Origin: a virus | Reading direction: 5' to 3' (one strand) | IMG/VR virus record: IMGVR_UViG_3300021956_000066 | Location: 1-27,553 of that record | Length of the DNA: 27,553 bases | Shown: one piece after another, positions 3,259 to 23,336 of the stretch | How positions within the stretch are numbered: the stretch's first letter is position 1 | How the letters are laid out: every line of letters begins with the position of its first letter | Translations under genes and position numbers: made by a program | Notes under the pieces: model-generated | The model's database searches: none | The model's input: only the letters and a program-made list of their open reading frames with translations | Told to the model about the DNA's origin: nothing

Positions 3259-3414
3259 ATGGTAAGAAATGTAATAGATTTATTAATGGTAAATAACCAT
3301 TATGGCCAAAGCGAATTGATTGAAATTGCTAAAGGCAAAAATGAAATTCCTAAAACTTGGAAAAGCGGATTTAAACAAATTAAAAGAGAAGTAAAATGGC
3401 TGACAAAAAAATAA
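3259..3414 (+). CDS. Small basic hypothetical protein between fibre and tape-measure genes
   Basis: A 51-codon frame starting two bases after the fibre stop (MVRNVIDLLMVNNHYGQSEL, ending EVKWLTKK). It fills the gap and overlaps the start of the tape-measure gene by 19 bases, the overlapping style common in this genome. It is Lys/Ile rich with no membrane segment or Cys motif. An internal ATG at 3286 is an alternative start. Chance remains possible because the frame is short; tight packing is the main support. Confidence 0.45.
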   Translation: MVRNVIDLLMVNNHYGQSELIEIAKGKNEIPKTWKSGFKQIKREVKWLTKK

Positions 3415-19122: not shown

Positions 19123-19773
19123 ATGTATACGATAAAATGTTTGACAGCACAAAATGCTTTTGAAGAATTATATGATTATATAATTAAAAATGGCGAAGAT
19201 TGTTCTAATGGAACAAAGCAAATATTTAATACTTTAATTCAAATTGATAGACCTGATTTAAATTTAATTAAAACAGAATTTAGAAGTTGGAATAAAGATT
19301 ACGCCGAATATGAATGGCAATGGTATTTAAGTGGTAATCCAAATGCAGAAGAAATATCTAAAAAAGCAAAAATTTGGAAAAATATGATGGATGAGGATGG
19401 TAAAGTTAATTCAAATTATGGTTATCAATGGAATAGAAATAATCAACTTAATAATGTAATAGATATTTTAAAAAATAATCCAACTTCAAGAAAAGCTAGT
19501 ATATCGTTGTATGATGGAAAAGAAATATATAAATATTCTAAAGATACAGTTTGCACTTATGCAATTAATTTTTATATAAATAAAGATAAACTTAACATGC
19601 AAGTTATGATGAGAAGTAATGATTTAGTTTATGGATTTTGTAATGATCAATACTGTTTTAGTAAATTACAAATGTTAGTAGCAAATCAATTAAATTTAAA
19701 TTTAGGAATTTACACTCATTTTGTATGTAATATGCATATCTATGAAAGACACTTTAACTTAAAAAATAAATAA
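19123..19773 (+). CDS. T4 gp42-like deoxycytidylate hydroxymethylase (thymidylate synthase superfamily)
   Basis: 216 residues. Thymidylate-synthase-family signposts are all present: NYGYQWN (98-104), NPTSRKA (119-125), a catalytic-Cys position (C144), QVMMRSNDLVYGFCND (160-175) and HIYERHF (205-211). MRSND-V-GF-ND is what I remember from T4 dCMP hydroxymethylase (MRSNDVVFGFRND). The position occupied by Asn in thymidylate synthase (GLPFN) is Asp175 here, the change known to shift base preference from U to C. The enzyme should make 5-hydroxymethyl-dCMP with methylene-tetrahydrofolate. It is slightly shorter than T4 gp42 (246). It lies between DUF6378 and MazG-like genes. Confidence 0.8.
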   Translation: MYTIKCLTAQNAFEELYDYIIKNGEDCSNGTKQIFNTLIQIDRPDLNLIKTEFRSWNKDYAEYEWQWYLSGNPNAEEISKKAKIWKNMMDEDGKVNSNYGYQWNRNNQLNNVIDILKNNPTSRKASISLYDGKEIYKYSKDTVCTYAINFYINKDKLNMQVMMRSNDLVYGFCNDQYCFSKLQMLVANQLNLNLGIYTHFVCNMHIYERHFNLKNK

Positions 19774-22550: not shown

Positions 22551-22895
22551 ATGAAATTAAATGAAGAAGAAACAGTGATGATTTACTTGGGTTTATTAAA
22601 CTCATTAATTGATCACATTGAAGGCGATTTTAGACAATCGATATTCAACAAGCAATCATTAAAGAACAAATCAAATATGGTTTTGGATGAATTGCTAAAG
22701 ATTGAGCAACAACTTTACAAGAATAATCCGGATACAACTGTAAGTGATGATTACTTTAGTGCTGGTAAAAATATGCTAGAATTTTTTAAATTAGGTATTA
22801 AGATGACAAAATTAGAAGAAGAAAATGCGCAAAGTCTTAATAATGAATTGAATAGCTTATTAAATAAATATGAATTAGATTTGGAATTTAAATAA
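22551..22895 (+). CDS. Hypothetical helical protein, 114 residues
   Basis: Starts MKLNEEETVMIYLGLLNSLI; three to four helices with charged faces (KNKSNMVLDELLKIEQQLY, LGIKMTKLEEENAQSLNNEL). Possible coiled-coil at the C-terminus. No family recognised. It is the last gene before the tRNA-like RNA, and the -33 element of that RNA's promoter (TTG at 22881) lies in its final codons. Confidence 0.6.
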   Translation: MKLNEEETVMIYLGLLNSLIDHIEGDFRQSIFNKQSLKNKSNMVLDELLKIEQQLYKNNPDTTVSDDYFSAGKNMLEFFKLGIKMTKLEEENAQSLNNELNSLLNKYELDLEFK

Positions 22896-22909
22896 TTTTT
22901 ATACATTTG
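22881..22909 (+). promoter_or_regulatory. Bacteroidota promoter TTG-N18-TACATTTG for the tRNA-like RNA
   Basis: TTG at 22881-22883 and TACATTTG at 22902-22909 with an 18-base spacer match the TTG/TAnnTTTG consensus. The expected start is about 4-7 bases after the -7 box, at or next to base 22913 where the acceptor stem begins, so the RNA would need little or no 5' trimming. Confidence 0.8.
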
Positions 22910-22912
22910 TAT

Positions 22913-23067
22913 AGTCAGGTGGCGGAATGGTAGACGCTTCTTAATATTGATAATTTAGTCCGTGTTATCATATTATTTAAAAGGGAAAAGCAAAAATAAA
23001 TAGAATGCATTCTATTGTTAATAGCGAACGGCAAATGCCCTTATAGGTTCGAATCCTGTCCTGACTA
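22913..23067 (+). tRNA. tRNA-Leu-like gene with a ~74-nt insertion at the anticodon arm
   Basis: Acceptor arms AGTCAGG (22913-22919) and CCTGACT (23060-23066) pair at all seven positions, with A23067 as discriminator and no encoded CCA. The D arm is GCG-GAATGGTAGA-CGC (22922-22937), of the Leu kind. The T arm is ATAGG-TTCGAAT-CCTGT (23043-23059). A short long-variable-arm stem GGC-AAAT-GCC lies at 23030-23039. Between D and T arms are 105 nt instead of about 32. Removing 22943-23016 leaves an 80-nt tRNA-Leu with loop GTTAATA (UAA) but a weak anticodon stem TTCTT/GCGAA. Alternatively the local TTGTTAA loop at 23015-23021 would read as GUU. The surplus is a bulged 11-bp hairpin and an 18-nt palindrome. 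Functional, spliced or decoy RNA cannot be settled by eye. Confidence 0.7.
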
Positions 23068-23081
23068 CTAAAATTTGTAAT

Positions 23082-23336
23082 ATGTTTTATAATCCGTTTG
23101 AAGAATTATCAAGAGAATTACAAAAAACTAATATGAAAGAGCAAGTCAATCATCCCGAACATTATTCATCCAATGGAATTGAGGCCATTGATGTCATTGA
23201 TGCCTATAAATTGAATTTTAATCTTGGGAATGCAATTAAGTATATCTTAAGAGCAGAAAAAAAAGGGAATAAGAAAATTGATTTAGAAAAATCTGTTTGG
23301 TATTTAAATCGAGAAATAGATAAATTTCATGGATGA
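23082..23336 (+). CDS. DUF3310 family phage protein
   Basis: 84 residues carrying the family core VNHPEHYSSNGIEAIDVIDA, then NLGNAIKYILRAEKKGNKKI and DLEKSVWYLNREID. DUF3310 proteins are common in phages, sometimes annotated as nucleotide kinases, but I know of no firm biochemical proof. The N-terminal 18 residues (MFYNPFEELSRELQKTN) precede a second ATG (MKEQVNHPEHY), which is an alternative start. It is the first gene after the tRNA-like RNA. Confidence 0.85.
   Translation: MFYNPFEELSRELQKTNMKEQVNHPEHYSSNGIEAIDVIDAYKLNFNLGNAIKYILRAEKKGNKKIDLEKSVWYLNREIDKFHG

Follow-up and report, generated by a model that had tools for sequence, protein, structure and literature searches.

The window analyzed here is a 27,553-nt stretch of viral DNA (IMG/VR record IMGVR_UViG_3300021956_000066) from a small phage genome, which also carries a thymidylate synthase gene at positions 19123 to 19773 (PF00303, E = 4.9e-32). 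The locus of interest lies on the plus strand between an upstream open reading frame (22551-22895, +), which served as the query for the orthologous locus in relatives and has 15 relatives in viral contigs, and a DUF3310 gene (23082-23336, +; Pfam PF11753, E = 1.8e-18), for which relatives were also found. Here, an RNA gene at 22913-23067 (+) reads as the acceptor, D arm, and T arm of a tRNA-Leu. It is preceded by a promoter-like site of what we take to be the Bacteroidota type (Flavobacterium/Bacteroides consensus), spanning 22881-22909 (+), with TTG at 22881-22883, an 18-nt spacer, and TACATTTG at 22902-22909, ending 3 nt upstream of the acceptor.

The 5' acceptor strand AGTCAGG (tRNA positions 1 to 7; 22913-22919, +) forms seven of seven Watson-Crick pairs with CCTGACT at 23060-23066, which together with the discriminator base A73 makes up the 3' end of the RNA (23060-23067, +); both strands are conserved in the family described below. 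A T at position -1 can pair with A73. U8, G9, and a tRNA-Leu-type D arm, TGGCGGAATGGTAGACGC (A14, A15, G18G19, and A20a), occupy 22920-22937 (+), an assignment based on the sequence, on family conservation, and on covariation of the 15-48 pair. The T arm, ATAGGTTCGAATCCTGT (ATAGG-TTCGAAT-CCTGT; 23043-23059, +), has five of five pairs, one of them G-U, and the family consensus is ACAGG/CCTGT. In place of the anticodon and variable arms is a hypervariable insert of 105 nt (22938-23042, +; U48 is 23042). It contains a bulged hairpin (22942-22975, +), present in both the MFE and the centroid structures, and an exact 18-nt palindrome, AATAGAATGCATTCTATT (22999-23016, +), which folds as a 7-bp hairpin and also appears as a reverse-strand self-match. 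The original prediction had described the promoter-like site, the canonical arms and their spacing, the hairpin, and the palindrome, and each was recovered here. The TTAATA repeats that it had noted at both insert ends (22941-22946 and 23018-23023) are also in place, but a 6-mer in AT-rich DNA is weak evidence, and the repeats are not reproduced in relatives.

ARAGORN calls nothing at this gene, and the window has no Rfam match at the gathering cutoff, RF00005 included. Several other family members do pass the RF00005 cutoff, and some still receive a UAA-like call. Neither program matches a tmRNA in the window, and Rfam reports no intron family there; at 105 nt, the insert is indeed below the size of group I and group II introns, as had been pointed out. 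The gene has no anticodon arm with a 5-bp stem and 7-nt loop, and the hypothetical excision leaves a T-C mismatch. The whole RNA is not significantly better folded than its shuffles (z = -1.42), and the insert alone gives a weak signal (z = -0.56). Because the RNA folds only modestly beyond shuffles, the case for it rests on comparison with relatives, and because its insert is a singleton in a clustering of family bodies and folds weakly, the structure of this insert rests on the family as well. The core of the window's own cassette has no exact match in viral contigs.

Constant arms around variable inserts

The exact 25-nt 5' half of the element, AGTCAGGTGGCGGAATGGTAGACGC, was found in at least 120 IMG/VR contigs. 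Among the matches listed, nearly all share the 3' half ACAGGTTCGAATCCTGTCCTGACTAC, and the sequence between the D and T arms is wholly different. That the 5' half alone finds this many contigs, of which nearly all share one 3' half, shows that the window element is not a chance assembly. A further set of elements was retrieved with the 3' half as the query; the collections comprise up to 120 listed matches per scan, and the loci are partial contigs. The original prediction had suggested searching related phages for the three arms with a variable insert, and had taken arms that are not co-conserved as the mark of a degenerate tRNA. Many such relatives exist; strong co-conservation is seen for their arms but not for the insert.

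The inserts span 20 to about 140 nt, and clustering of 270 distinct bodies gave 210 clusters. Among 240 dereplicated elements with the AGTCAGG acceptor, U48 is present in 87%, A73 in 91%, and C74 in 99%. T-stem positions 50 to 53 and 61 to 65 are 95 to 100% conserved in the family, and the T-stem and base-73 conservation is also seen in the 71 elements retrieved with only the 5' half, for which both lie outside the DNA query. The D arm is kept across the family, with some members having non-Leu D arms or G73. An acceptor-blind scan returned exactly AGTCAGG/CCTGACT in 56 of 82 distinct elements, and most of the remaining acceptors are still complementary (e.g., AGTCCTG/CAGGACT and GTCAAGG/CCTTGAC); some elements with other acceptors carry inserts of the same clans. 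The Levitt pair 15-48 covaries (A15-U48, 171; G15-C48, 6; G15-U48, 0; A15-C48, 7; Fisher P = 3e-8), these counts being of dereplicated bodies rather than of independent evolutionary events. The conservation of the acceptor, the T arm, the 15-48 pair, and A73 indicates that the tRNA elbow is intact. An extra inner T-loop was considered as a shared feature and rejected, as just 12 of the 240 elements have one.

On sequence grounds, we are highly confident of the anatomy of these RNAs, namely, constant tRNA-Leu arms with a structured, swappable cassette in the place of the anticodon and variable arms. Since the insert replaces the anticodon arm, such an RNA would be unable to decode codons. Together, the members form a large family of phage tRNA-scaffold RNAs that is apparently new to the literature; no paper describing such a family was found in the open-access literature.

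Many members sit in phage tRNA arrays, and several genomes hold many copies, as in the L007 array. The promoter motif TANNTTTG ends 3 to 6 nt upstream of the acceptor in 23 of 382 elements, compared with 13 at all other offsets examined; the 23 placements are not all independent and represent about nine different upstream contexts. Arrayed elements often have a short hairpin directly 5' of them, with the loop GAAAGA or similar (CTCGGAAAGACGAG and CAGCTGGAAAGACAGC) and a stem that varies compensatorily. Sites of this kind occur at about 1940-1970 in L007 and upstream of elements in L070, L104, L109, L112, and L362.

No isolate among 50,697 deposited phage records contains the 5' half, and a 32-nt probe of the 5' half returned only D arms of ordinary tRNA-Leu or short matches attributable to chance; a deposited metagenomic phage, MW202828, has a variant element with the acceptor AGTGCAG. 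Four contigs from 84,980 bacterial and archaeal species genomes matched, all phage-like and each the sole matching contig of its genome, two being in Chitinophagaceae MAGs and two assigned elsewhere. Given this rarity in bacterial genomes, the family is viral rather than a host tRNA copy. From the promoter type and the two Chitinophagaceae contigs, we infer Bacteroidota hosts. Mimicry of the top half of a host tRNA was considered separately and rejected, as the 395 Bacteroidota and 296 same-family genomes scanned lack the T-arm/acceptor pattern, with the exception of one phage-like contig, which is among those already named. As for cultured phages, Tenacibaculum phage pT24 (L225, 2278-3235) has an annotated series of tRNA-Sup, tRNA-Undet, tRNA-Pro, and tRNA-Undet with long noncoding spacers. 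One RNA of this cluster has the ACAGGTTCGAATCCTGT T arm, and pT24 is possibly a cultured phage with related RNAs.

Replacement and recombination of cassettes

The family inserts are better folded than dinucleotide shuffles (mean z = -0.79 ± 0.086 [standard error]; n = 139). In three clans, each represented by three sequences, helices have changed on both sides and the loops are conserved. No motif is shared by all inserts.

One locus, compared in eight phages, carries six unrelated cassettes within flanks that are 87 to 95% identical (84% for one pair, over a shorter downstream stretch). At this same locus, L040 and L083 have an identical cassette on flanks 90 to 92% identical. A second locus holds unrelated cassettes in L014 and L022, between flanks that are 96 and 92% identical. 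Judged from these comparisons, cassette change at conserved loci is replacement, not drift.

The relatives of the window locus, found via the upstream open reading frame, show the same intergenic site. In L230 and L231, it is occupied by an element with other inserts and an additional hairpin in the D loop, and in L235, the same TATACATTTG precedes a different RNA of hairpin or pseudoknot-like form. In six others (L229, L232, L233, L234, L236, and L243), both promoter and element are missing, and the upstream protein is 90 to 97% identical. In L235, a close relative of the window phage, the variant lies just 3' of the match end at 3342, where the same promoter is followed by the short RNA GGAATGGTTGTATCAGGGGTTCCCAGTCATTCCTTACTTGATA, whose two stems interleave in the manner of an H-type pseudoknot.

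The D-loop hairpin of L230 and L231 is also found with other inserts and with another acceptor (AATGAGG, in L362 to L364), and in clans 5 and 7, phages differ in which D-loop module is paired with which main insert. To go by these combinations, the two modules recombine independently of each other. Cassettes may also do without the tRNA body: the clan of the L074 cassette recurs in L027 and L078 outside any such body. In L027, a simple AGAGTAAG/CTTACTCT stem closes the cassette, which lies behind a promoter-like TAACTTTG site. A standalone cassette compared with Rfam gave no credible match. The inserts did not match Cas12a, Cas13b, or II-C CRISPR-repeat motifs in a simple, nonexhaustive pattern check, and none of the cassettes was matched to a known defense RNA.

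Possible functions of the scaffold and its cassette

The reading that we favor, with a probability of roughly 0.55, is that the family consists of phage small RNAs on a tRNA-Leu body, possibly leucylated, that display a variable decoy or binding cassette. Transcription would start at the acceptor or within a few nucleotides of it, and host RNase P, RNase Z, and the CCA enzyme would mature the ends. The tRNA body would confer stability and would also present the determinants for leucylation by LeuRS. The cassette would confer specificity by binding or titrating a host factor, perhaps most likely one of antiviral defense, which is the least certain step. The turnover of cassettes at promoter-driven sites, their conserved loops and covarying stems, and their lack of complementarity to their own loci make binding of a host factor the best fit. 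That the cassette acts as a decoy is a suggestion to which we give slightly less than an even chance; if it does, rapid turnover at a fixed site would reflect an arms race. A tRNA mimic acting as a decoy or regulator was among the options of the original prediction, and it agrees with the reading favored here.

With regard to leucylation, the LeuRS of E. coli requires A73, A15-U48, G18G19, and A20a and charges tRNA-Leu lacking the anticodon and variable arms (PMC9976931). The window RNA has every one of these determinants, and the A15-U48 and A73 combination occurs in 158 of 189 scorable elements, compared with 30 of 132 non-Leu tRNAs at these loci. Taken together, the determinants and the family counts indicate that the conserved parts are approximately what LeuRS reads and that the variable parts are what it ignores. 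RNase P, RNase Z, and the CCA enzyme use the same parts, so leucylation is a prediction and not a result; given the members with non-Leu D arms or G73, it also cannot be a universal feature.

The same observations could be accommodated by an RNA that is charged by the host LeuRS, which ignores the anticodon, and that never decodes, thereby sequestering LeuRS, leucine, or EF-Tu or donating leucine elsewhere. Such a leucine-acceptor decoy leaves a variable yet structured insert unexplained and does not suit the members with other D arms or G73, and we consider it unlikely. We also doubt that the top half is kept solely as a site for RNase P/Z cleavage and recombination, as tRNA punctuation with an interior free to vary. 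The residence of many members in tRNA arrays, the lack of a common insert motif, and the possibility that the constant halves seed recombination all speak for punctuation. It is at odds with inserts that are structured beyond shuffles, with their compensatory changes and conserved loops, with an identical insert on diverged flanks, and with a cassette clan found outside tRNA bodies. In addition, RNase P minimally needs an acceptor-T substrate, which the retained D arm and 15-48 pair exceed.

An antisense or immunity RNA is a far less probable explanation. P1 c4 RNA and P4 CI RNA are small, stable phage RNAs of variable specificity that are matured by RNase P, and the RNAs described here may resemble them, by analogy, in being small and phage encoded, in a likely tRNA-like maturation, and in variable specificity. 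An RNA of this type would pair with phage transcripts, but complementarity between insert and own locus is not in excess (mean percentile, 0.492 ± 0.027; n = 115, mostly partial contigs), and antisense to the own locus was rejected within the partial contigs compared. Conserved loops with changing stems are, moreover, the opposite of a guide that tracks its target. Least likely by a wide measure is that these are decayed tRNA-Leu genes, whether or not they contain a mini-intron that removes itself. The failure of ARAGORN and Rfam to call the window gene and the UAA-like call that persists in some members would suit decay, but the arms are co-conserved with covariation, promoters are correctly placed, and cassettes are replaced wholesale; as a general explanation, degeneration is refuted. 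An intron in a tRNA-Leu was rejected on insert length (20 to 25 nt being too little for an anticodon arm plus intron), on the lack of shared boundaries, and on the locus comparison. The original proposals of a mini-intron and of a Leu-UAA tRNA are wrong or find no support, as relatives have as little as 20 to 25 nt between the arms, share no splice signals or anticodon, and do not reproduce the UAA loop after excision. Of the proposed single tRNA-Leu, with its mini-intron or giant domain, what survives is a promoter-driven RNA whose tRNA arms are genuine; the gene belongs to a family with swappable inserts.

Extending the favored reading of a tRNA-bodied binding RNA, it is possible, though we put it forward tentatively, that aquatic, mainly Bacteroidota phages possess a combinatorial RNA system. 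A tRNA-Leu chassis, possibly leucylated, would offer at least two exchangeable sites (the D loop and the anticodon position), and cassettes would be shuffled between phages to present changing structures to host factors. If true, this would be the RNA equivalent of a scaffold that bears hypervariable loops. The family predicts leucylation, a transcription start at or next to the acceptor, and a phenotype that depends on the cassette. Engineers load foreign RNA inserts on tRNA bodies, and these phage RNAs would be a natural, widespread counterpart. Gene finders overlook the tRNA-scaffold genes or report them as tRNAs with nonsense anticodons, and the cassettes amount to a collection of rapidly evolving RNA structures from phages, which would be candidates for counterdefense.

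Relation to known RNAs

These RNAs share with bacterial tRNA-Leu the acceptor, D, and T arms, A73, A15-U48, G18G19, and A20a but differ in being non-decoding, with the hypervariable insert instead of an anticodon or variable arm. To our knowledge, no phage RNA decoy has a tRNA body. Precedents for RNA-based counterdefense are the RNA anti-CRISPRs (Racrs), which are phage RNA decoys (PMC10651486), and a phage RNA that mimics ToxI (PMC3475682). Like the RNAs proposed here, these are small phage decoys or mimics directed against defense; unlike them, they are not known to have a tRNA body, and the inserts here had no CRISPR-repeat match in the simple check. The c4 and CI RNAs differ in being antisense to their own transcripts, which is not supported for the tRNA-scaffold RNAs.

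The likeness to tmRNA lies in a tRNA-like acceptor/T domain with another RNA domain in place of the anticodon arm. In contrast to tmRNA, the phage RNAs have a full D arm, short hypervariable inserts (from 20 nt), Leu-type rather than Ala-type identity, and no common tag reading frame. An unannotated tmRNA-like gene, recognized by eye only, was seen in crAss-like phage cr4_1 (NC_055893.1; L226, about 1300-1530); it comprises GGGGCATTATGGTTTTGACAGC, a short frame encoding MDYTRLAA followed by stops, and the T arm/acceptor end CTCTCCTTACTACA.

GOLLD RNA, a large noncoding RNA of phages, is likewise found near tRNA genes, but its structure is unrelated, a single conserved fold that is not cassette-like. 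The two do occur side by side: in L080, a phage with several tRNA-scaffold elements, a GOLLD RNA (1293-1710; 262 bits) lies immediately upstream of a tRNA-Leu call.
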